A stretch of DNA of 64,000 bases, taken from contig OX465583.1 in NCBI GenBank assembly GCA_950022655.1, positions 17,783,318 to 17,847,317 of the forward strand, given 5' to 3'. This document shows positions 12,331 to 36,735 of the stretch, piece after piece. This stretch comes from Alentia gelatinosa (taxonomy: Eukaryota; Annelida; Polychaeta; Phyllodocida; Polynoidae). Every line of letters begins with the position of its first letter. Position 1 is the stretch's first letter. A program made the translations under genes and the position numbers. The notes under the pieces are model-generated. The model was given only the letters and a program-made list of their open reading frames with translations. It was not told the DNA's origin and searched no databases.

Positions 12331-13023
12331 TAAAAAAACGTAGTTGAAGGAGAAAAAAATGAGAGAATTTTCCTGACTACAACATTCAGACCTGGGAAAA
12401 AACATGTCCAATCAGCAGTAAGAAAAAACTGGGAGATCCTGGGCAAGTCAACAACCACGAAGAATATCCATCGAGCGGATCTAATGATGGGATATCGCAG
12501 ACCCAAAAACATAAAAGACCACCTGGTGAGATCGAGACTGAACTACCACCCAAAAGACGAACCCCAAACAAAGCAAACATCCGGGGACACAAACAAATGC
12601 AACAAAAGAAACTGCAAATACTGCAAAGTATTGGACCGAGGAGGAAAAATACACGCAAAAAACAGGACCATGGAAAGCAAGACGAATATCACATGCAACA
12701 GCTCAAACGTGATATACTGCATAGAATGCAAAAAATGTGCAATCAAATATGTTGGACAGACAAAAAGGAAAATAAAAGACAGGGTCAGAGAACACATGTA
12801 CGCAGTCAACACTAAAAAAGAAACCGACATAGGGTACCACTACAACACCACAGGACACTGTGGAATCGAGGACATGAGAGTCTACATAGTAGACTTCATA
12901 TACGACCACCCAGAGAGCACCAGAGCTAAAACCCTCAGGAACACCATTGAACACAACTGGATACATAGACTACAAACTGTAGCACCATATGGCCTGAACA
13001 CAATGGACAACAAATATGGATGA
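12331..13023 (+). pseudogene. Penelope-like element, C-terminal GIY-YIG nuclease
   Basis: A frame open from about 12331 to the stop at 13021 encodes the end of a Penelope-like reverse transcriptase and its GIY-YIG endonuclease. The linker has the family block YRRPKNIKDHLVRSRL. It then has CNKRNCKYC (Cys motif), YCIECKKCAIKYVGQTKRKI (nuclease strand and helix), the conserved H in YHYNTTGH, and the closing EHNWIHRLQTVAPYGLN. The ATG at 12484 is internal; coding similarity begins before it, near 12371. The reverse transcriptase domain is missing, so this is a 5'-truncated copy. Family membership is certain from motif order. Confidence 0.88.
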
Positions 13024-24870: not shown

Positions 24871-25015
24871 TGTAGTGGCGGGATTTCTCTGAAACGTTAT
24901 CCAGCACTAGGGCGCCCCCTACAGTGTATCTGGGCTACTAAGTATAATAAACAGTCAAGGCTGGCGATCTCTAATGCAGGCTGCTTCTGAGTTATCCACT
25001 AATCGAAACCCTACA
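24871..25015 (+). mobile_element. Probable 3' LTR of the deleted gypsy element
   Basis: Begins TGTAGTGGCGGG just after a purine-rich stretch (GATGAAAGGGAGATG) and ends CGAAACCCTACA. The 145-bp length is close to the 152-bp LTR of the complete element at 32224. It contains AATAAA near 24939. No second copy exists in the window for comparison. Confidence 0.5.
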
Positions 25016-25530
25016 ATATACACAAGTTTGTGACAGAGAGGCGTGAGAGTGAGAATCTCGTGGAGAGAAAAACTCTAACCTGCTCTTCTTTTTTGTAGAT
25101 CTCTTATGATATATTTTGAGCCATGCCAAAATCAAAGATTGTTTTGTCCTATAGTTTTAAGATCATCAAGTTTTGCTGGTTGTCGTAAAGCCTATAAACA
25201 CACCACCTGTAGGAGTCGTATTGCACTAGAGAGAGGAGGAGGTGGGGGTCGGGGGGTCGGGGGGTCGGGGGAGAGGCAGCTTTTTGTATTTCCTTTCTGG
25301 GGCAACTTTGGAGGTATTGTCGGGTCAGTCAGAATCATGTCGCTGTACACACTTCACAGACGCACTTCACAGACTTCGGGCATTACTACCATGGGGGTAA
25401 TGACCGACTGCCCGACCTTAAATCTTGTCGTTGTACGTACTTCACCGACTGGTCCCGATTCTCAGAAGGCTGCTTCATTAGCGTTAAAGACAAATGCTGG
25501 TAGTTGGGTGATTTCTAAATTCTATTGAGT
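25016..25530. other. No gene; short G-rich tandem repeat
   Basis: Non-coding. GGGGGTCG is repeated about three times at 25245-25273. An open frame at 25106-25528 crosses it and has no family features. Confidence 0.5.
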
Positions 25531-25532
25531 TT

Positions 25533-25885
25533 TGCAAATAACTCTGGATAATATAAGTTCCATATATCAGTAAATAGAAAATGCAAAAAAATGGCATGTC
25601 ACCATACTAAATTCTATGGGAGGGCCATCTGAAAATGTAAGTGCTTAACTAGTGGTGTCTATGGGAAAATGCAATATTTTGACTTCGTGGCTAGATGACA
25701 CTGATGTTCTATTGCTATATTTAAATAATTCTGGATTCTGATAGTTGGGAACATATACAAATGAGAAATGCTAAAAAATTATCATATCACCATGCTAACT
25801 TTTATGGTAAGGCCATCTGAAAAGATAAGTGCTTAACTATTGGTGTCTATGGGAAACTGCTACATTTTCATGATACCAGATGGCA
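25533..25885 (+). repeat. Two ~189-bp tandem monomers upstream of LINE ORF1
   Basis: Two similar units share CATATCACCATGCTAACTTT-like sequence, then GGCCATCTGAAAA, then AAGTGCTTAACTA and TGGTGTCTATGGGAAA. The units are offset by about 189 bp. Their position about 250 bp before the LINE ORF1 start suggests promoter monomers of the LINE 5' UTR. That is inference from location only. Confidence 0.65.
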
Positions 25886-26130
25886 GCACCAGTGTAAACT
25901 GAGTAGCAACAGGGGGACCAGCGGTACCTACCCGCATTTGTCTTTAATGTTTATAGATCTGTTTGATAGATATATGAGTAGTATACACCAATTTGTAGGA
26001 GAGATCATATGAGCGATGGCGTGGTGAGGACGCACGGTAGTAGAGCAGCTGCATAAATTCTAAACATATCGGGTTTTAAACTGTAAACAAGGCAAAATAC
26101 ACAACGTCGTAAAATTGTGAAAACATCGTG

Positions 26131-27486
26131 ATGGGACTCAACAGAGGTAGAGGAAGGAGGGACAACTCTGCTCCCAAGAAAACGGAAAACAAACAAGATG
26201 ATAATGAAGACTCCGTTGTCGAACCCCCATTATCGCCCAAAGCATGTGCTGTCACGCAGCCGACTCTGACAGCTGAAGCATCAAATGAAGATATTATCAG
26301 AAAGGTAAATGAACTAGAGAGAAGAGTTGCCAAAAACGAAGATAACATTGCAAAAACCAGTGGCATACTAACAATGGTTGAAAAACGTCTTGAAAGTTCG
26401 GATAAACTACATTTAGAAGCCGCGGGTTTATTTGCAGAACTGAAAGGGAAAATCGTGAAGACGGAAAAAACTGTTGACGGCATCGAGGAAGCCATGAACC
26501 AGCTTGACACGGAAGTGACAGAGGCAACATACACAGCCAACGAATTCGCCATAAAGGTTGAATCGGTAGAAGAAAAAATGCTACGGTTTGATAACGCTCA
26601 GAAAAAGAAGATTCTGATTGTTGATGGCATGCGTGAAGACCCACTGGAAAATATCCGTGATATTTTCGTCCAATTTGTCAATGACCTAGGGGTCCAACTG
26701 AAGCCGGCCGACATAGACGCTACTTATAGACGAGGTCAACCGGACCAAAGCAAAACAAGAACACGGTCGGTCGTAGTGGAGTTTGTAAACCACACTTCCA
26801 AGGTCCACATCTTCAAAAATATCAAGAACATCAGACAACTACCAAGATGGAGTAAACTACAACTATCTGACGACCTGACAATCGAAGAACGACGTATGAA
26901 CAAAGACCTACGCGCTATACAAGCGGTCGCCAGAGGCAAACGTATCAAGTGTTCAGTGCGAGGGACTAGCAACCGAATCCAAGACACAACATACACGTAC
27001 GGTCAGATAGAAAACTTACCAAACGGACTTGACATTGGGAGTGTAAAAACGGTAGAAACGGACCACGGAATTGCATTCCAAAGCAAACACGCTCCACTTT
27101 CAAACCTCTACCCGGCTAGATTCACGTACCAGGGTAAGAAATTTGAATCTTCCGAACAATGTTACCAATTTCGTATGGCAGACTGTATGGGTCAAACTGA
27201 GGCAGCGAAAAAGATTTATGGTTCGATCGATCCCTACGAGGTAAAGCAACTCGGAAATAAGATCAAGAAAACAAAGGAACGGGAGGATAAGCAAGAACAT
27301 GAAATGTTCCAGATTCTAATCTCTAAATTCTCTCAAAACGCACAGCTGTGTGACACACTTCTAAATACAGGTGGAAAATCCTTATTTGAAGCTACCAGAG
27401 ACCCAGTGTGGGGCTGTGGTTACCATCTGGGTGAGGTCAACAAAATAAAAGCTGTCGGGCAACCTCATGGGCACCATCCTGTCTAA
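26131..27486 (+). CDS. LINE ORF1 protein with C-terminal NADAR domain
   Basis: An intact 451-codon frame; I chose the ATG at 26131 over the in-frame GTG at 26128. Residues 1-45 are basic and Ser/Pro-rich. Residues about 50-155 are heptad-rich (IIRKVNELERRVAKNEDNI), so a coiled coil. Residues about 160-235 (KKKILIVDGMREDP to IFKNIKNI) resemble the RRM-like core of LINE ORF1 proteins, and about 240-300 the C-terminal RNA-binding part. Residues about 312-446 read as a NADAR/YbiA-like domain: PLSNLYPARF, FESSEQCYQFRMAD, MFQILISKFSQNAQL and WGCGYHLGEVNK, in the family order. NADAR proteins are linked to NAD and ADP-ribose and have been reported to act on ADP-ribosylated guanine. ORF1 proteins coat the RNA. 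An esterase ORF and ORF2 follow on the same strand. Confidence 0.85.
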   Translation: MGLNRGRGRRDNSAPKKTENKQDDNEDSVVEPPLSPKACAVTQPTLTAEASNEDIIRKVNELERRVAKNEDNIAKTSGILTMVEKRLESSDKLHLEAAGLFAELKGKIVKTEKTVDGIEEAMNQLDTEVTEATYTANEFAIKVESVEEKMLRFDNAQKKKILIVDGMREDPLENIRDIFVQFVNDLGVQLKPADIDATYRRGQPDQSKTRTRSVVVEFVNHTSKVHIFKNIKNIRQLPRWSKLQLSDDLTIEERRMNKDLRAIQAVARGKRIKCSVRGTSNRIQDTTYTYGQIENLPNGLDIGSVKTVETDHGIAFQSKHAPLSNLYPARFTYQGKKFESSEQCYQFRMADCMGQTEAAKKIYGSIDPYEVKQLGNKIKKTKEREDKQEHEMFQILISKFSQNAQLCDTLLNTGGKSLFEATRDPVWGCGYHLGEVNKIKAVGQPHGHHPV

Positions 27487-27682
27487 AGTTAGAGATCACC
27501 TAAATGTAGACAAAAGCGACGATATAATAACCTAGGGTAATTAAAATCAGCAACTACTATGGCGGCAAACTTCCAGATAACCTATCCAACCAAACTGGAC
27601 AAAGAAATAAATAAACTTGAAGATATACTGATAAGAACCTGGACACCGTTACCGCAAAATGTCATTATCGGTGATTCGAGAG

Positions 27683-28208
27683 GTCGAAAATCACGAAATG
27701 GCAGCAAATGGGTTATATTTTGAATATCTTAAAAAATCCTTCTTGGAAAATAGTTTCAATAGTTTTCACACGTCTAGGGAATTGTATGGCACAGTCCAGA
27801 ACCTTAAAACCAGACCTAACTCCAATATTTATTAAAATATTGCAAAAAACCTGACTGTGTCAAGTCACGACACCAGCATAAAATCGTGCATAAAATAAAA
27901 TAAAAAAGTGGCAGAATACAATGAGTTTCACTGTTTTTAATGATTCACTTATATGCATCTTCCCACCATAAAAGGGTAGGTCTATATGGCTTCCTTCATA
28001 CTGAACTGAATTTGTGCTATTTTGCACGTAACGTGACGTGACGTTTTTATTTTCATATTAGCCCTGTGCTAAAGCTAATTATGCTAGTTAGTGTTCCCAA
28101 TTTTGCACATGAGTCCTCTAATATATAGAGATGATATTTGCAAAAGGAATTAATGATCCTCTCAGATTTGATTTTTGGTGTAGTTGCTGCTATTTCGTGA
28201 TTTTCGAC
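27683..28208. mobile_element. 526-bp non-autonomous TIR element, 6-bp TSD
   Basis: The left end is GTCGAAAATCACGAAATGGC. The right end is its inverted copy with one mismatch, giving terminal inverted repeats of about 25 bp. Direct CGAGAG copies flank it (27677-27682 and 28209-28214), and the esterase frame continues exactly across one copy of that site. It has no coding capacity. The superfamily is unresolved because 6-bp duplications are uncommon. Confidence 0.85.
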
Positions 28209-28940
28209 CGAGAGTGTCACGCCTTTATGAGTCCATTGCTGCTGCAAACACAAAGGCGCAAAGATTTAATGTCTTCGCAGTACCCGGTGCCAGCCCACAG
28301 GATTGCATTGTATTGGCAAGCAACCATTTAAAACGAAGCCCAAACGCGGTATTATTATATACCTATGCACAAACTCACTACGAATACGGACTGCTGCTAC
28401 GGGTGTAATATATGTATCATACGGCCGAGGTACTCCATAATTTCTTGTACAGGTCGCCTTTGGATCGGCCGTACGGAGTGCTTTGAAAGTAAAATAACGC
28501 AATCTGATTGGACGAGAGTTGGACAGAAAAGGGACAGCGGCAAATTTAAATATGGCGGTCGAATGGCATCGCTTCGATGACGGCAATATTTAGTGGTCAG
28601 TTATTGTGAACTACAGCATGTAGGACATTGAAATACAGAATCCACGCATGAATTATGGAATTACTCCGTAATACAGAAGGAATCATCGTGAAAAGCAATA
28701 TAACTGGTCTTAAGGACACTGAGAGTCAGTGTCTTGACTGCCGATAGGCACGGCAGTGGAAGCGGGATACAAAATGTAAACAAAGCAACAAAAAGTAAAG
28801 GAACAGAGAAGGACACATTGTTTAAACATAAAACTAAAATAATTCAGAATAGTTTTAAGTTCGTTTTTATATCCTGTATTGAAGGTCTCTACACTGGCGT
28901 TTTTTCCTTTTTTATTTAAAAAGAAATGCATAAAAATGTT

Positions 28941-29015
28941 CTGCCATGAGCGGGGATCGTACCCCAGACCACTCGAATTGGAAGCAAGCACCCTAACCAC
29001 TACACCACCAAGGTT
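28941..29015 (-). repeat. tRNA-like segment in repeat copy 1
   Basis: On the minus strand CCTTGGTGGTGTAGTGGTTA (A-box-like) is followed by a TTCCAAT loop region and GGTACGATCCCCG, a B box with one mismatch. Acceptor ends do not pair well, so I call this a tRNA-derived Pol III promoter and not a tRNA gene. The copy-2 equivalent is 30657-30731. Confidence 0.6.
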
Positions 29016-29301
29016 ATGTCGGGAATGAGGCCAGTTGTTATGTTTTATATCTTACTATTCACTCTCCAGGCACATATTCCCATACTCTTCACGATTTTAA
29101 AAATATGCTGGGTATGTAAAGAATGTGCTAGGAGAGTGTGTGACCGACTGCGCATGCACCATGGGTTAGGAATAAACATCCGGTTGATAATTTCTTGTAC
29201 AGGGTGCCTTTCGAAGTAAACTTGACAGAGAGGGAGTGTGATTAACGGCCAATTACGGTAAAATTAGACTATTTACGGGCAATTTAAGGCATATAATAAT
29301 A

Positions 29302-29447
29302 GGAGAACAATGTGATTATACTTGTACTCCATGATTACCTCTTTCAGATCGGTCAAAATACCCACCTCCGTCTACGACGTCGGTGGGTATTTTGACCGAT
29401 CTGAAAGTCGGTAATCATTCCGTACAAGTATAATAACATAGTTCTCC
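29302..29447. repeat. 146-bp palindrome, copy 1
   Basis: Outer arms GGAGAACAATGTGATTATAC and the mirrored GTATAATAACATAGTTCTCC enclose an inner near-perfect stem (TTCAGATCGGTCAAAATACC with its complement). The two arms are about 70 bp. It marks the right end of the 1.1-kb repeat. Confidence 0.85.
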
Positions 29448-30064
29448 CATAATCTATATCATGGCCGGAACATGCAACATTACTCACAAAAACCAAAAGA
29501 CTAAAAATATCGAATTTCACTGGAAGTCTACTGACTCTCTAGTCCAACATATATTATCGTACGCAGAAACCGGACATAAATGGCTTCGTGAAAATTTTCC
29601 AAATTCCCGGTTTGTAATCTGCCCACTCACGGGCATTGACTTATTTAAGTGTGTAAAAAACGTCTCTGAGGAGGAACAACAAATTGTCAACTGCGCAATC
29701 CCTGCGATAAACAGAAAACTGATCGAAACAAATTATGACAATTTGAAGATATGCCAACCATGGCTGGCAAACCACGTCCACAAGCACAGGCGAGGGAAAA
29801 TAAAGGAACACTACGAACTCCTACAACCCGATGGCATACACCCTACGACCCAATTACTGGACTTATGGGCCCATGACCTACTAATGAGTTTTGAAAAAAA
29901 CATACCAGTTCTGTCAGGTCATTGGTAGAAAAGACCTACACTTGCAAACGTTGACTCGGGCTAAATTGGCAAGTTGGCAGTTGTTAGTTACAATAGCCAA
30001 CAGACACCAGTTGCACCCGTTGTCTCACATCATTAAACTTAAACTAAATTGTGGGATTATTATC

Positions 30065-31166
30065 ATTATTATATACCTATGCACAAACTCACTACGAATA
30101 CGGACTGCTGCTTCGGGTATAATATTTGTAGCATATGGCCGAGGTACTCCATAATTTCTTGTACAGCTCGCCTTTGAATGGGTCATACGGAGTGCTTTCA
30201 ACGTGAAATGACGCAATCTGATTGGACGAGAGTTTAACAGAAATGGGTCAGCGGGAAATTTAAAAATGGCGGACGGATGACATCGCTTCGATTACGGGAA
30301 TATTTAGTGGCCAGTTATCGTGAACTATGGCATGTAGGACATTCAAATACAGAATACAAACATGAATTATGGAATTACTCCCAAATACAAAAGGAATCAT
30401 TATAAAAACCATCATAACTGATCTTATAGACACTTAGAGTCAGTGTCTTGACTGCCGATAGGCACGGCAGTGGAAGCGGGATACAAAATGTAAACAAAGC
30501 AACAAAAAGTAAAGGAACAGAGAAGGACACATTGTTTAAACATAAAACTAAAATAATTCAGAATAGATTTTAAGTTCGTTTTTATATCCTGTATTGAAGG
30601 TCTCTACACTGGCGTTTTTTCCTTTTTTATTTAAAAAGAAAAGCATAAAAATGTTATGCCATGAGCGGGGATCGTACCCCAGACCACTCGAATTGGAAGC
30701 AAGCACCCTAACCACTACACCACCAAGGTTGTGTCAGGAATGAGGCCAGTTGTTATGTTTTATATCTTACTATTCACTCTCCAGGCACATATTCCCATAC
30801 TCTTCACGATTTTAAAAATATGCTGGGTATGTAAAGAATGTGCTAGGAGAGTGTGTGACCGACTGCGCATGCACCATGGGTTAGGAATAAACATCCGGTT
30901 GATAATTTCTTGTACAGGGTGCCTTTCGAAGTAAACTTGACAGAGAGGGAGTGTGATTAACGGCCAATTACGGTAAAATTAGACTATTTACGGGCAATTT
31001 AAGGCATATAATAATAGGAGAACAATGTGATTATACTTGTACTCCATGATTACCTCTTTCAGATCAGTCAAAATACCCACCTCCGTCTCCGACGTCGGTG
31101 GGTATTTTGACCGATCTGAAAGTCGGTAATCATTCCGTACAAGTATAATAACATAGTTCTCCCATA
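30065..31166 (+). repeat. 1.1-kb repeat, copy 2
   Basis: Same length and orientation as copy 1 at 28351. It lies between the esterase ORF end and ORF2 of the same LINE. Its last 730 bp are nearly identical to copy 1, including the tRNA-like segment and the palindrome at 31017-31162. No clear target duplication could be fixed at either end. Confidence 0.85.
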
Positions 31167-31342
31167 CTACTACCAGTTATATTGTTACTTTGCTATATTC
31201 TTTATTTTTTGTTGCCATCGTGTAATTCTAGGGGTACACAAATGTCCATATGTTGTTTTCATGAAATTGATGAGACAAAACTTTGTTGCTCAACAATAGG
31301 GGAGACTAAATTGAACGTGTTATGTTACGATTATGAAGAGAT

Positions 31343-32223
31343 ATGACGAGTATGTTTAAAGTCGATGACACAGGCGCAAAAAAGGGGCTGAAATTTTTCT
31401 ATGCAAACTTATGTAGCCTACGGGCAAAATATGAATCCTTAGTGCTAGAAACAAGAGACAAGTCATGGGATATAGTCTCGGTCTCTGAAACATGGCTAAC
31501 TGAAAATGATAAACTAAATGAATATAATCTCCCAGGATATAGCTTTTATAGAGTAGACCGTTCTTGGAAGGAAAAGGAGACCGACCTAAAACCCAAAATA
31601 GGAGGAGGCATTGGAGTGTATATTAGACAAGATCTAGGAATTGATGTACAATGCTATAAATACCTCAACACAAGTAATAGACATATTGAAATCCAGGTTA
31701 TTAAGTTGAAACGTAAATATGCAAAAGATGTGATCTTCATAAATGTGTATAGACCTACCGGTGGTAACAAAGAACTATTCAAAACCCTGTTGATGGAAAA
31801 ATTGATGGACTTAGAACAAATAAATATTGATGTCTTAATCATGGGAGATTTTAATATAAATGTGTTAGAACAATCACCAGAAGTGACAAATTTTATTTCG
31901 GATATGAAACAACTGGGGTTCTATCAATTAATTACTAACTACACACGTTTTAGTAAAAATAGCACCTCTATTGACTTAATATTTACGAACACTAATGATG
32001 TAAACTTAGCTGGGGTGCTAGATCTTGCCTTCAGTGACCATCAGGCCATATTTATTATAAAGAAAAAAACACAACAGCATAAGGAAACAAAGGAATTTAG
32101 AGGTAGATCATATATAAACTATAATCTAACAGCATTGAAGCATCATCTACTAAATTGGAATTGGGAAATGTTCTATCAAACTAAAAATCTGGAGTCATTG
32201 ATAAAATAGTTTATTGAGGCCTG
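31343..32223 (+). pseudogene. LINE ORF2 endonuclease domain, truncated
   Basis: An APE-type endonuclease: NLCSLRAKYESL, SVSETWLTEND (metal-binding Glu), GGGIGVYIRQDLG, VIFINVYRPTGG, LIMGDFNINVL (Asp and Asn of the GDFN block), IDLIFTN and FSDHQAIFI (closing SDH). All key residues are present. The frame hits a stop at 32207-32209, and gypsy insertion at 32224 follows. I do not recognise LINE sequence after the gypsy, so the reverse transcriptase part appears lost. It is the downstream ORF of the same LINE as ORF1 at 26131. Confidence 0.85.
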
Positions 32224-32375
32224 TGTAGTATTCCTACTGTACACTAGGCGGCGCCACCGTTACCGCACTACGTGAGAGACGTTTATGAGCGATAATACAC
32301 TTCTTCTATGAAAGCAATGCTACTGAGTTCAGTCTTATGTCCATAGCCTAAATCACACCATTTAAAGATATTACA
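32224..32375 (+). repeat. 5' LTR of the gypsy element
   Basis: Starts TGTAGTATTCCT and ends AAGATATTACA. 152 bp, identical to the 3' LTR. Confidence 0.95.
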
Positions 32376-32376
32376 T

Positions 32377-32391
32377 TGGCGACTGAGGCTG
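32377..32391 (+). promoter_or_regulatory. Candidate primer binding site
   Basis: TGGCGACTGAGGCTG begins one base after the LTR. TGG is the usual first triplet of a tRNA-primed site. The tRNA is not identified. Confidence 0.5.
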
Positions 32392-32478
32392 TTAATCAAT
32401 GCAGGTATACTTTCCTGACTTCAAGGAACCCATTGGTGGTGAGTGGAACTGGCTGGACATAAAATTTGGCAGATTTTG

Positions 32479-32640
32479 ATGACTTTGATGTGGGTGTGTA
32501 TTGGCACTGTACTGAGTCACAGTGAATGTAACTATAGTGTGTGCACTTTTGAAGACACTAGGCCCACAGCATCATTCTGTACTACTGATGAACTTTTGTA
32601 CTGTGAAAAAACCTGTTTTAAAAGCACTGCACTGTACTAA
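32479..32640 (+). other. Small upstream ORF in the gypsy leader
   Basis: The ATG at 32479 opens about 53 codons ending one stop before the Gag frame and in the same frame as it. The peptide starts with a hydrophobic stretch (MTLMWVCIGTVLSHS) and has five Cys. It could be a leader peptide or chance; there is no family match. Confidence 0.2.
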
Positions 32641-32652
32641 ATTTTGATCAAA

Positions 32653-35600
32653 ATGGCTACACCTTGTAATATTGGGCCTTATATCAAAGAAAGGGAGACT
32701 TTCAAGGCATATTGTGAAAGGTTGGAGGCATATTTTGATGGAGAGGATTTAGTTACTGTAGACCTTGTCGGTGATGATGCAGTGAAAGTAGCACAGGAAG
32801 CGAAAAATGCAATTATCACTAGAAAAAGAAGAGGCATTTTTCTGTCACAAATTGGAGCGGAATGTTATACAATGCTTGCTAACCTTATTTCTCCCAAAGT
32901 CCCACGTGAAACTAAATTAGAGGATTTAGTGAAGAAGTTAGAGGAACATTTCAACCCAACACCTCTTGAAATAGCTGAGTCATTTTATTTCGGTACTAGG
33001 AACAGAAAGGAGGGTGAGTCAGTGAATGACTATATATTGGCTCTCAAAGAATTGGCAATTCACTGTAATTTTGGTGATAATCTCAACCGTTCTTTACGAG
33101 ACCGTTTTGTCTGCGGACTAAATATACAACCTATCCAAGATAAACTGTTGAACACAGAAGGCCTAGACTTTAAGAAAGCTTGTACTATTGCCCAGCAAAT
33201 GGAGCAATCTCATAAAAAATCCAAGGATTTTAAGTCTAGCTTATCTGCTAGTGCTGCTAGTTCTGATGTAAATAAGGTTTACAAATCTAAGCAATTTAGC
33301 AAGAGTACCAAGAAGGTAAAATGTTTTAGGTGTTTTGGCAATCATAGTCCAGATGACTGTAAGTTCAAAGATGCGACATGTTACAAATGCCAACATAAGG
33401 GACATTTGGCTAATTCATGCAAGTCCAAATCCTCTAAGAAAGGGAGTAAGGGAAAAGTTCATTCTATGGACAAGCAACCAGGTTCTAGTGATGATAGTGA
33501 GGATGACCTGGGCATTCACAACTTGTTTTCCACTAACTCTGATAACTCTAAGAAAAAGTACACAGTTGATGTTGTAGTTAACAACCGAGTTATTCAAATG
33601 CAAGTGGATACCGCTGCAGATTACACAGTTATGGGTTGCGACAAATTTCGGAAATTCTTTCGCGGTAAGAAACTAAAAAAATCTGATGTTAAGCTACGTG
33701 TGTATTCTGGTGCTCACATACATGTCTGTGGGGAATTGCTATGTGATGTGGAATATAAGGGTCAAAAGAAGGAACTACCGATCCTAGTTGTAAACTGTGT
33801 GAATCGACCAATTCTGTTTGGCCGAAACTGGATCGAAGCAATCAAATTGGATTGGAATGACATTTTTGGAATCGAGAGTAAGGAAAAGACACTCAACGAT
33901 ATTCTCGGTGAACACGAGGATATTTTCCATGATAGCTACGAGGGCATTTCAGGATTCAAGGCGCATATCAAGGTCAAAGACAATGTCACACCTCATTTTG
34001 CCAAAGCAAGACCAGTGCCTTACTCCTTATATGATCAGGTCAATGCAGAACTTGATAAACTTGAAAAGAACAAGGTTATAACACCCATGAACCCTGAGGA
34101 CACTGAATGGGCCTCGCCCATTGTTATTGTACCTAAAACCGATGGTAGTGTCAGAATATGTGGCGACTATAAGGTACATGTGAATGAATGTATTGAAGAT
34201 GAAAAATATGCTTTACCTACTGTTCAAGATCTAATGTCTTCTCTTACAGGTGGTGAAATCTTTACTAAACTTGACTTGTCGCATGCATATGCTCAACTTG
34301 ATCTAGATGATGAGAGTAGAAAATTGATGTCTATTAATACTCATCGGGGTGTCTATGGTTATACTAAGTTAGCATATGGTGCTAAGCCTGCTTCTAAGAT
34401 TTTTCAATCCACCATGGACAGGATCTTACATGGTATTGATGGTGTTATTTGTTTTCAGGATGATATATTGATCCGTGCAAAAGATGAAAAAGAGCATCTT
34501 GAACTTGTAGAGAAAGTTCTGAATAGACTAGCCAAGTACAATGTAAAACTCAAAAGAGAAAAATGTGAGTTCTTGAAAGAAAGTGTTGATTACTTGGGTT
34601 ATCGTATTGATGCTAATGGTGTACATCCATTACAGGACAAGGTCACAGCTATCAAAGAAGCTCCCGCTCCAACAAATATAAGTGAATTAAAATCGTTCTT
34701 GGGTATGGTACAGTATTATTCTAAGTTCATTCCACAGATGTCTACTATTGTTGCACCATTGAACAGATTACTTCGTAATGAAGTCAAATGGAGCTGGGGT
34801 AAGTCTGAGCAAGAATCGTTTGATTTGTTGAAATCAAAATTGAGTAGCGATGCATTACTTGCACATTATGATGTGAAGAAACTGCTCAAATTGGCTTGCG
34901 ATGCATCTAGTTATGGTGTTGGTGCAGTGATAAGTCATATTTATGAAGATGGTACTGAGCGACCTATTGCATACGCATCTCGTACTCTAACTTCATCCGA
35001 ACGTAATTATGCTCAAATAGAGAAGGAAGCCTTATCTATTATATTTGGTGTTAAGAAATTTCACCAATATTTGTATGGTAGAAAATTCACTCTGGAAACT
35101 GACCATAAGCCACTTTTGACAATTTTAGGTCCCAAAAATGCTATACCAACTTTAGCAGCTGCCCGTATGCAGCGTTGGGCGATAGTTTTGTCTGCATATG
35201 ATTATGATATCAAATATCGTAGATCATGTGACCATTCTAATGCAGATTGTTTGTCAAGGTTACCACATGAAAATTCGAAGGTGGGTAGAGAAAGTAAGAT
35301 ATACAGTATCAATTTTGTTGATACTCTTCCTGTCAAGGCTGATATTATAGCGAAAGAAACCAAAACCGATTCAATACTGAAGATTGTTTATGATTATGCT
35401 GCAAATGGTTGGCCTGAAAATATCAATCGAGAAGAGTTGAAACCGTACTTTATACGAAGATCCGAAATATCCATTGAAAACGGATGTCTATTGTGGGGAC
35501 TTCGTGTAATAATTCCAACTAGTTTGTGTACAGGTATAATGGATGAATTGCATACAGAGCATCCTGGTATTTGTGCTATGAAGCGTATAGCGAGGTCACA

Positions 35601-36735
35601 TGTTTGGTGGACTGGTATTGATAAGGATCTAGAAAATGCTGTGTACCGCTGTAGTATTTGTCAGGATAGCCGTGCTCTTCCTGCAACCTCTCCATTGTAT
35701 TCATGGAAATGGCCGAGGCGTCCATTTCAAAGAATTCATATTGACTTTTTTGAGAAGGAAAATATGTATTTTCTTATTATGATTGATGCACATTCCAAGT
35801 GGATTGAAGTTGTTCCTATGCGAAGCACAACTGCTGAAAGAACTATTGACGAATTAAGATTGATATTTGCTAGACACGGTTTACCCGAAGAATTAGTGTC
35901 GGACAACGGTCCTCAATTTGTCTCATCAATGTTTTCTACATTTTGTGATAAAAATTGTATAAAGCATACTCTCTCTCCACCATATCATGCAGCGACGAAC
36001 GGAGCTGCAGAGAGATCTGTAAGACTGATAAAAGAGATGTTGAACAAACATATTCTTGAGAATCAAAAGTTGTCATTAAAACATCGACTAGCAAATATTC
36101 TGTTCAAATATCGTACGACACCTCATACTACTACTGATAAGACTCCGTCTGAATTGTTGTATAAGCGTCAGTTACGAACAAGGTTAAGTTTAGTGAAACC
36201 GAATCTAGCTGAACATGTTGAAAAGAAACAAGAGCAACAGAAGTTATATCATGGTAGAATCAGAGAAAGGCATTTCGATGTAGGAGATAAAGTTCGTATC
36301 AAATACAATACAAAAGGTCTCAAGAAAGGTTCAGATCGTTGGGTTAGAGGTAAGATTGTGAAAGTATGTGGTCCGCGTAATTATGTTGCACAAATCGGAC
36401 AGGCTACTCGTTTTGTGCATATTGATCATATATTGGCTGATCATGTTCAAGATAATATTCCAGAATATGATCCATCTGAGTTTGTATCTACTAGTATAGA
36501 TGTAACAACTACTGATACACTGCCTATTATGGACAATGATAAAGGTATAATTGAACCACCTGAGCCTGTTGAAGATGTACCTGAGTCACCCAATGTCCGT
36601 CTACAAACTCCCATTCATGCAGAAACTCCAATACCGAGGTCTCCACCTCCTCATATTGAATCACCTGGAATGGCAACTCCACCTCCACGTAGAAGTTCAA
36701 GGGTTAAGAAACCAATTGTCAAAATGGATTTGTAA
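32653..36735 (+). CDS. Gag-Pol polyprotein (Ty3/gypsy)
   Basis: A single 1360-codon frame; ATG 32653 was chosen, and the TTG three codons earlier was rejected. In order: capsid-like Gag (1-190); two zinc knuckles near 224 (CFRCFGNHSPDDC; CYKCQHKGHLANSC); protease at about 319 with DTAA where DTGA or DTSA is usual; reverse transcriptase with KLDLSHAYAQLDL and FQDD at 601-604 in place of YVDD; RNase H with Asp750; integrase with HTEHPG and CSIC zinc residues (967-1003) and D1031, D1084, E1120 spaced D-52-D-35-E; a barrel domain (GDKVRIKYNTKGL); and a proline-rich tail. Gag and Pol share one frame with no frameshift, so the Gag to Pol ratio must be set another way. Proteolytic processing and integration are the expected roles. 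Confidence 0.95.
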   Translation: MATPCNIGPYIKERETFKAYCERLEAYFDGEDLVTVDLVGDDAVKVAQEAKNAIITRKRRGIFLSQIGAECYTMLANLISPKVPRETKLEDLVKKLEEHFNPTPLEIAESFYFGTRNRKEGESVNDYILALKELAIHCNFGDNLNRSLRDRFVCGLNIQPIQDKLLNTEGLDFKKACTIAQQMEQSHKKSKDFKSSLSASAASSDVNKVYKSKQFSKSTKKVKCFRCFGNHSPDDCKFKDATCYKCQHKGHLANSCKSKSSKKGSKGKVHSMDKQPGSSDDSEDDLGIHNLFSTNSDNSKKKYTVDVVVNNRVIQMQVDTAADYTVMGCDKFRKFFRGKKLKKSDVKLRVYSGAHIHVCGELLCDVEYKGQKKELPILVVNCVNRPILFGRNWIEAIKLDWNDIFGIESKEKTLNDILGEHEDIFHDSYEGISGFKAHIKVKDNVTPHFAKARPVPYSLYDQVNAELDKLEKNKVITPMNPEDTEWASPIVIVPKTDGSVRICGDYKVHVNECIEDEKYALPTVQDLMSSLTGGEIFTKLDLSHAYAQLDLDDESRKLMSINTHRGVYGYTKLAYGAKPASKIFQSTMDRILHGIDGVICFQDDILIRAKDEKEHLELVEKVLNRLAKYNVKLKREKCEFLKESVDYLGYRIDANGVHPLQDKVTAIKEAPAPTNISELKSFLGMVQYYSKFIPQMSTIVAPLNRLLRNEVKWSWGKSEQESFDLLKSKLSSDALLAHYDVKKLLKLACDASSYGVGAVISHIYEDGTERPIAYASRTLTSSERNYAQIEKEALSIIFGVKKFHQYLYGRKFTLETDHKPLLTILGPKNAIPTLAAARMQRWAIVLSAYDYDIKYRRSCDHSNADCLSRLPHENSKVGRESKIYSINFVDTLPVKADIIAKETKTDSILKIVYDYAANGWPENINREELKPYFIRRSEISIENGCLLWGLRVIIPTSLCTGIMDELHTEHPGICAMKRIARSHVWWTGIDKDLENAVYRCSICQDSRALPATSPLYSWKWPRRPFQRIHIDFFEKENMYFLIMIDAHSKWIEVVPMRSTTAERTIDELRLIFARHGLPEELVSDNGPQFVSSMFSTFCDKNCIKHTLSPPYHAATNGAAERSVRLIKEMLNKHILENQKLSLKHRLANILFKYRTTPHTTTDKTPSELLYKRQLRTRLSLVKPNLAEHVEKKQEQQKLYHGRIRERHFDVGDKVRIKYNTKGLKKGSDRWVRGKIVKVCGPRNYVAQIGQATRFVHIDHILADHVQDNIPEYDPSEFVSTSIDVTTTDTLPIMDNDKGIIEPPEPVEDVPESPNVRLQTPIHAETPIPRSPPPHIESPGMATPPPRRSSRVKKPIVKMDL

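Follow-up and report, generated by a model that had tools for sequence, protein, structure and literature searches.

A NADAR domain fused to ORF1 in LINE retrotransposons of the polychaete Alentia gelatinosa

In a 64,000-nucleotide stretch of the Alentia gelatinosa genome (the window), the forward-strand frame at 26131–27486 is predicted to encode a genuine fusion of an ORF1 core resembling that of L1 ORF1p with a C-terminal NADAR domain. Judged by its sequence, the element in the window is a dead CR1-like LINE; three putative proteins are encoded by its intact relatives. The fusion of LINE ORF1 to NADAR was confirmed as family-wide, and a fusion of this kind is already briefly in print (PMC12477816). 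Our preferred explanation, to which we give a probability of roughly 45% when it is taken as a whole, is that NADAR on the ORF1 ribonucleoprotein would remove ADP-ribose-type adducts and aid retrotransposition, and that the cassette to which it belongs would have moved between LINE superfamilies.

Translation of the window DNA gave one open frame of 451 residues at 26131–27486. Residues 318–432 matched the Pfam family PF08719 (NADAR) with an E value of 1.8e-21 and a score of 77.5 bits, where the cut-off is 35.1, and this was the only Pfam family above cut-off. A phmmer search of the PDB gave the Phytophthora NADAR 8bau as top match (residues 308–438, E 1.7e-11) and E. coli YbiA (2b3w) as a weak second (E 0.017). 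The profile search and the PDB match thus bear out the NADAR domain claimed by an earlier, sequence-only reading, and the four blocks on which that claim was based (PLSNLYPARF, SSEQCYQF, FQILISKFSQN and WGCGYHLGE) all lie at the expected positions in the translation. The boundary of the fusion also falls, as had been stated, within a single exonless ORF. An origin of the fusion in mis-joined exons is ruled out, as many intact copies contain it in one open DNA frame.

A profile of 11 ORF1 proteins from a related clade (A2, see below) matched YbiA (8e-28) and 8bau (2e-26) in the PDB, and reached human L1 ORF1p (2ykp/2yko) over the RRM part with an E value of 7e-5. Weak matches of the same profile to coiled-coil chains suggest a coiled-coil character for the N-terminal part. 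The window ORF1 can accordingly be divided into an N-terminal part of coiled-coil character (residues 1–155, 26131–26595, plus strand), the L1-ORF1p-like RRM with the region that follows it (residues 156–300, 26596–27030, plus strand), and the in-frame part of NADAR, placed by Pfam and by residue mapping on 8bau (residues 312–435, 27064–27435, plus strand). The LINE ORF1 layout proposed in the sequence-only reading therefore stands with respect to the L1 ORF1p match over the RRM, but what it called the 'RNA-binding end' corresponds to the stretch behind the L1-like RRM, and NADAR comes next. The frame had also been described as intact. It is open throughout, but its end is not the natural one: separate translation against the alignment of the window's own clade (A1) placed the last conserved NADAR block in a different reading frame at 27449–27502 (plus strand), so that the called ORF has left the NADAR frame in its final residues.

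The genome (1.23 Gb in 101 contigs) was searched for further copies. In the search with NADAR, all 150 scored matches, the best of 3136 first-look candidates, exceeded the Pfam cut-off; they include one standalone NADAR gene (L001), and a stop within the NADAR match was counted from the table in 4. The window ORF1 protein (P0001) gave at least 94 scored matches from 3614 candidates, the nearest other copies being 75–76% identical, and the NADAR domains of four relatives scored 107–115 bits in Pfam. Because these searches relied on NADAR, the search was repeated with ORF1 residues 1–300 alone as query, yielding 131 scored matches of 2157 candidates. Frames were shorter than 440 codons in 39 of these, and the downstream DNA was taken for 19 of the 39 together with one match of 447 codons. 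NADAR sequence was present downstream in all 20 copies, often broken and in L067 scoring only 29 bits, and many of the remaining members of the 131 reappear in the P0001 search with their NADAR part matched. Other LINE copies of this genome thus contain the same fusion, and a one-off event, which the sequence-only reading would have seen in a family otherwise lacking the domain, is ruled out.

Eight copy pairs were 97.5–99.7% identical over 2.3–6.1 kb, indicating that the family moved recently. Groups of near-identical ORF1-NADAR/esterase copies were also seen on contig C6 at about 11.29–11.68, 15.75–16.27 and 21.96–22.03 Mb, with three copies spaced 29,772 bases apart; such groups look to have arisen by tandem duplication instead of by separate insertions.

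To establish the layout of the elements, eight longer loci were translated in six frames. We distinguish CR1-like elements (A, made up of the window's clade A1 and of A2) and L1/Tx1-like elements (B; L044, L046 and L087); the CR1/Jockey-group name for A is provisional. The order ORF1-NADAR, SGNH esterase, endonuclease–reverse transcriptase (EN-RT) is common to both types. In the A elements L039–L043 and L045, NADAR lies at the end of ORF1 (three of them gave Pfam E values of 1e-30 to 5e-33), and a separate second ORF has about 224–279 codons. The best PDB match of a second-ORF profile was the ZfL2-1 LINE esterase 4c1b (E 4e-5), the match covering the first third, where the GDS block lies, followed by two designed proteins (0.003 and 0.01) and by known SGNH hydrolases at 0.45; single second-ORF proteins had no Pfam match above cut-off. 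Pfam detected EN and RT in one open ORF2 frame in L039 and L043, while ORF2 was broken in L040, L042 and L045 and mostly absent in L041. A long linker separates the RRM region from NADAR in A2 and is absent in A1 and B.

The ORF2 of the B elements L044 and L046 is about 1290 residues long. That of L044 matched human L1 ORF2p (8uw3) with an E value of 2e-110 over most of its length and contains zf-RVT (Pfam), against only 5.6e-16 for the ORF2 of L039; it is 74% identical to that of L046 and 66% identical to that of L087. By these comparisons the lineage B ORF2 is evidently kin to L1 ORF2p over its length. Tx1 falls within the L1 group. The esterase ORF of B elements is intact in L087 and a remnant in L046, and no clear trace of it was found in L044 or in L007, also of type B. 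A B-type esterase query gave at least 150 matches in the genome, with A-type esterases among the lower-scoring ones. In the window's family (L009–L038), esterase sequence was found downstream in 27 of 30 loci, weakly in L009 and L030; in L036–L038 no downstream esterase ORF was found, and NADAR and an endonuclease ORF are present. One locus, L015, contains ORF1-NADAR and the esterase within a single 723-codon frame, a natural fusion of both accessory genes.

Selection was estimated by the Nei–Gojobori method on 17 ORF1s (136 pairs). Median omega over the N-terminal part was 0.317, against 0.132 over the RRM part and 0.139 over NADAR (maximum 0.381); these medians draw on the 64, 22 and 20 pairs, respectively, in which dS was computable, since silent sites are saturated. 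When 17 pairs were chosen, NADAR dS was computable in five: the three with substantial dS gave omega of 0.03–0.07, one gave 0.27 on 4 changes, and one had silent changes only. NADAR is therefore under purifying selection about as strong as that on the RRM part, which in these relatives suggests that the domain matters for the spread of the element. The notion that NADAR is a neutral passenger of one chance fusion accords with the broken window copy and with nothing else. Purifying selection on the domain, its presence in all 20 copies selected independently of it and its retention in L036–L038, where the esterase was not found, all speak against it, and the omega values together with those 20 copies leave it practically ruled out.

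For the relationships of the domain we built a tree of 62 rows, comprising 39 LINE NADARs (12 A1, the window, 23 A2 and 3 B) and 23 others (21 database NADARs, the host gene L001 and the database protein P0122). The database rows were hand-picked, 18 from 120 listed NADARs plus all four proteins found with the ORF1 profile. In this unrooted tree the 39 LINE NADARs formed one group apart from the 23 others with support of 100/99, and independent captures of NADAR by the two LINE types are not favoured. L001 (C11:13149326-13149775) groups with animal and bacterial NADARs, apart from those of the LINEs; the named sequences among its best 12 database NADARs are from animals (Solemya, Ridgeia and others). 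Full-length P0001 had no match in the protein database at E 0.001. The ORF1 profile recovered four proteins there and, among the best 7995 candidates, the whole layout in P0122 only. This 552-residue ORF1, from a database contig, matches the ORF1 copies described here with an E value of 3e-33. In the tree it forms a long branch beyond the LINE group, and a placement inside was not rejected (AU p 0.489), so a separate capture of NADAR by P0122 and a common one would both fit.

Pairwise scores differed between the parts of the element. For ORF1 they were 143–159 bits between A1 and B, 94–106 between A2 and B, and 85–99 between A1 and A2; without NADAR the ORF1 scores were close (A1–B 44–56, A2–B 45–49, A1–A2 43 or no match). 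The esterase gave 77–98 bits for A1–B, 53–69 for A2–B and 30–63 for A1–A2. ORF2 scored 308–346 bits for A1–A2 in the longest frames (162 and 208 for two fragments of L042) and 37–84 for A–B. In ORF1 and esterase, B thus lies no further from the A groups than these lie from one another; in ORF2 it is remote from both. Within NADAR, B scored 91–100 bits with A2 against 103 with A1, so that no single donor is evident.

The simplest account of these discordant similarities is that ORF1-NADAR and the esterase ORF were probably exchanged between LINE superfamilies. Two superfamilies would thus seem to have swapped a pair of accessory genes. Inheritance of both genes from a common ancestor of the CR1-like and L1-like elements, followed by loss elsewhere, would be compatible with the single NADAR group, the trees being unrooted, and with the lack of a single donor. 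We consider such inheritance distinctly improbable, given that B is near A in ORF1 and esterase and far in ORF2, and that human L1, whose ORF2 is kin to that of B, is to our knowledge not reported to have a NADAR domain. Reticulate evolution of ORF1 is known for the Jockey group (PMC4120745).

The binding pocket was examined by mapping NADAR pieces on 8bau, with the numbering of that structure and residue roles as given in PMC11543638; L001, the standalone gene, is among the pieces, and some copies are covered by more than one locus. Residues E43 (66/66), E125 (64/64) and W133 (64/64) are invariant in the pieces that span them. W89 is kept in 65 of 66, the sole exception being the window, which has R, and position 130 is D or N. 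These invariant residues include those that hold the distal ribose, among them the ribose-side glutamates (PMC11543638). E125 is the glutamate of the YbiA subfamily. In E. coli C7 NADAR, where E88 is the equivalent of E43, the E88A mutation did little in vitro (PMC11543638); conservation of E43 by itself is therefore no proof of catalysis. The lysine K95 of the same protein, equivalent to K50, is essential for efficient hydrolysis of guanine-ADP-ribose (PMC11543638). Position 50 is K in 41 of 66 pieces of the partly redundant set. In the less redundant set it is K in 3/12 A1, 22/23 A2 and 3/3 B, and in all 20 database NADARs with a letter there; the replacements in the other nine A1 members are M, H, R, A or V. 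The fewest changes between K and other residues amount to two within A1 and five on the whole tree. K50 is not a condition of membership of the NADAR family, and the window has M at this position.

The other end of the pocket is more altered. Residue R79 and an aromatic residue at position 84, which in 8bau contact the pyrophosphate and the adenine (PMC11543638), are both present in 21 of 21 database NADARs. Against this, R79 is found in 1/12 A1, 0/23 A2 and 2/3 B, and the aromatic in 3/23 A2, with a gap in all A1 and B, although the alignment of this short loop is unsure and its placement differs between two mappings. The A1 NADARs have an invariant W-G-C-G-x-H-x-G-E block (30/30 readable of 33 pieces, three being truncated), which occurs in none of the 32 other readable LINE pieces. 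We infer that the ribose end of the pocket has been kept and the adenine/phosphate (substrate) end rebuilt, most in the window's clade, and that this is not decay. For that clade a shifted substrate appears likely; the loss of R79 and the aromatic residue and the replacement of K50 would also fit a changed substrate or a binding role.

A binding role is the first alternative to enzymatic activity. NADAR may have no enzymatic function in ORF1p and serve instead as a module that binds nucleic acid or reads ADP-ribose and so widens the RRM surface. The changes at R79 and position 84 in LINE NADARs, and at K50 chiefly in A1, would suit such a module, as would its position after the RRM region, free of the long A2 linker, in A1 and B. 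The role favoured for the LINE esterase is membrane targeting, possibly with regulated phospholipase activity (PMC3905857), so accessory enzymes of LINEs may act as binders. We nevertheless find this reading doubtful: the invariance of E43, E125 and W133 in all spanning pieces goes beyond the apparent needs of binding, and K50 is retained almost throughout A2 and in all of B.

A second alternative retains the enzyme and changes its target, NADAR being an N-glycosidase on a small NAD- or riboflavin-type nucleotide or on an NAD-capped RNA end. YbiA reportedly cuts intermediates of riboflavin metabolism (PMC11543638), and the conserved ribose end, the rebuilt adenine/phosphate end and the new invariant C/H/E block of A1 are all consistent with such a substrate. 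Fusion to an RNA-binding domain suggests a nucleic-acid-borne target instead, and the NADARs characterised in PMC11543638 and PMC11125620 are active on guanine-ADP-ribose in vitro; we therefore regard this possibility too as an unlikely one.

L1 ORF1p coats its RNA as a multimer, and the ORF1 protein described here would be expected to do the same with the element RNA. In our preferred explanation, removal of ADP-ribose-type adducts, NADAR would ride on this ribonucleoprotein and act there on N-glycosidic adducts, most likely ADP-ribose on guanine bases of the element RNA, cDNA or target DNA, or on proteins of the particle. Selection would keep the domain because it would help retrotransposition where the host ADP-ribosylates nucleic acids or proteins as a defence or stress response. 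NADARs of several subfamilies strip ADP-ribose from guanine in vitro (PMC11543638, PMC11125620). ADP-ribosylation of DNA guanine by CARP-1 has been reported in shellfish (PMC8053099), and guanine adducts made by DarT1 and ScARP are reversed by NADARs (PMC11543638), which makes a counter-defence reading concrete. A role of NADAR in protecting the element from ADP-ribosylation would be plausible. Activity in vitro is not always protective in cells, and the roles of animal NADARs have been described as unclear (PMC11125620). The Pfam Scabin-like family, used to look for a host guanine ADP-ribosyltransferase, had no match in this genome; as it also had none in 14 control genomes, the zero is uninformative.

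A bolder form of the same idea, which we put forward only tentatively and expect to be wrong in at least some part, is that the cassette of ORF1-NADAR and SGNH esterase common to the two superfamilies would be a retrotransposon-borne eraser of host nucleic-acid ADP-ribosylation, the A1 pocket having been adapted to a new substrate of the ADP-ribose type as part of an arms race against the ADP-ribosyltransferases of the host. For the question whether ADP-ribosylation of nucleic acids holds transposons in check, this LINE family, which is high in copy number, moved recently and retains NADAR under strong selection, offers a directly testable case with natural variants at the key lysine.

In the titles and abstracts covered, which exclude most subscription journals and bioRxiv, PMC12477816 was the only report on NADAR in retroelements, and none described NADAR in CR1-like LINEs, the esterase neighbour or the exchange. 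That paper notes NADAR domains in ORF1 of Tx1 LINEs of Crassostrea gigas and in Gypsy elements of Ectocarpus, and suggests RNA processing. The C. gigas Tx1 LINEs (Repbase) resemble the present elements in having a YbiA-family NADAR in a LINE ORF1, and lineage B has an ORF2 of L1/Tx1 type, whereas the element in the window, like the majority of the copies retrieved, is CR1-like. The part of PMC12477816 available to us contains no account of selection, esterase ORF, residues or exchange for the Tx1 NADAR. The Gypsy-12_Ec32 group of Ectocarpus is likewise a retrotransposon with a NADAR domain. The N-terminal two thirds of ORF1, with the match to L1 ORF1p over the RRM part, may correspond to what Khazina and Weichenrieder defined as Type II ORF1 (coiled coil, RRM, CTD), a class used in PMC4120745; unlike the ORF1 described here, none of the five ORF1 types has a NADAR domain in the sections of that paper available. 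In ZfL2-1 (4c1b; PMC3905857) the esterase, the best PDB match of the second ORF, sits in ORF1p, whereas here it forms a separate ORF after ORF1-NADAR. The YbiA-subfamily NADAR of Phytophthora nicotianae (8bau) is homologous and shares the conserved pocket residues, W89 apart from the window, but differs in R79 and Y84, mostly lost in LINE NADARs, and in K50, variable in the window's clade. In positive-strand RNA viruses, the NADAR and Macro domains found within polyproteins (PMC9503650) provide another case of an ADP-ribose-related domain on a selfish element, proposed to counter host ADP-ribosylation, although that polyprotein contains an RNA-dependent RNA polymerase and is not a LINE ORF1.

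The window copy itself is dead, with a frameshift before the last NADAR block, K50 replaced by M, insertions, and no RT. Mapping on 8bau showed that its NADAR has the equivalents of E43 and E125, with M for K50 and R for W89. When the SGNH ORF of L039 was used in tblastn, an SGNH-type ORF, separate from ORF1, was found on the plus strand in three pieces, at 27550–27681 (77% identity), 28211–28375 (78%) and 29449–29925 (69%, with the D-G-I-H-P block). The endonuclease part of ORF2, corresponding to residues 1–281 of L039 ORF2, lies at 31343–32182 (plus strand; 60% identity by tblastn, Pfam Exo_endo_phos 9.2e-11). A tblastn search with L039 ORF2 found no reverse transcriptase of this copy within the window, only the endonuclease of its ORF2 being recovered. 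A scan of 25000–33000 with Rfam gave no match at gathering scores.

Two copies of a repeat were seen at 28351–29152 and 30065–30867, in blocks 99% and 89% alike with a spacing of 1714–1715; the repeat may be about 1 kb long, with one copy within the esterase ORF and the other in the spacer before ORF2. The broken endonuclease of ORF2 is immediately followed by a long open gag-pol frame of 1363 codons at 32644–36735, which we take to be of Gypsy type. Elsewhere in the window, 12484–13023 (plus strand) resembles by eye the GIY-YIG type endonuclease end of perhaps a Penelope-like element, and 2–1851 contains a fragment of another LINE ORF2, which shares 29–38% identity with the ORF2 of CR1-like LINEs bearing NADAR.
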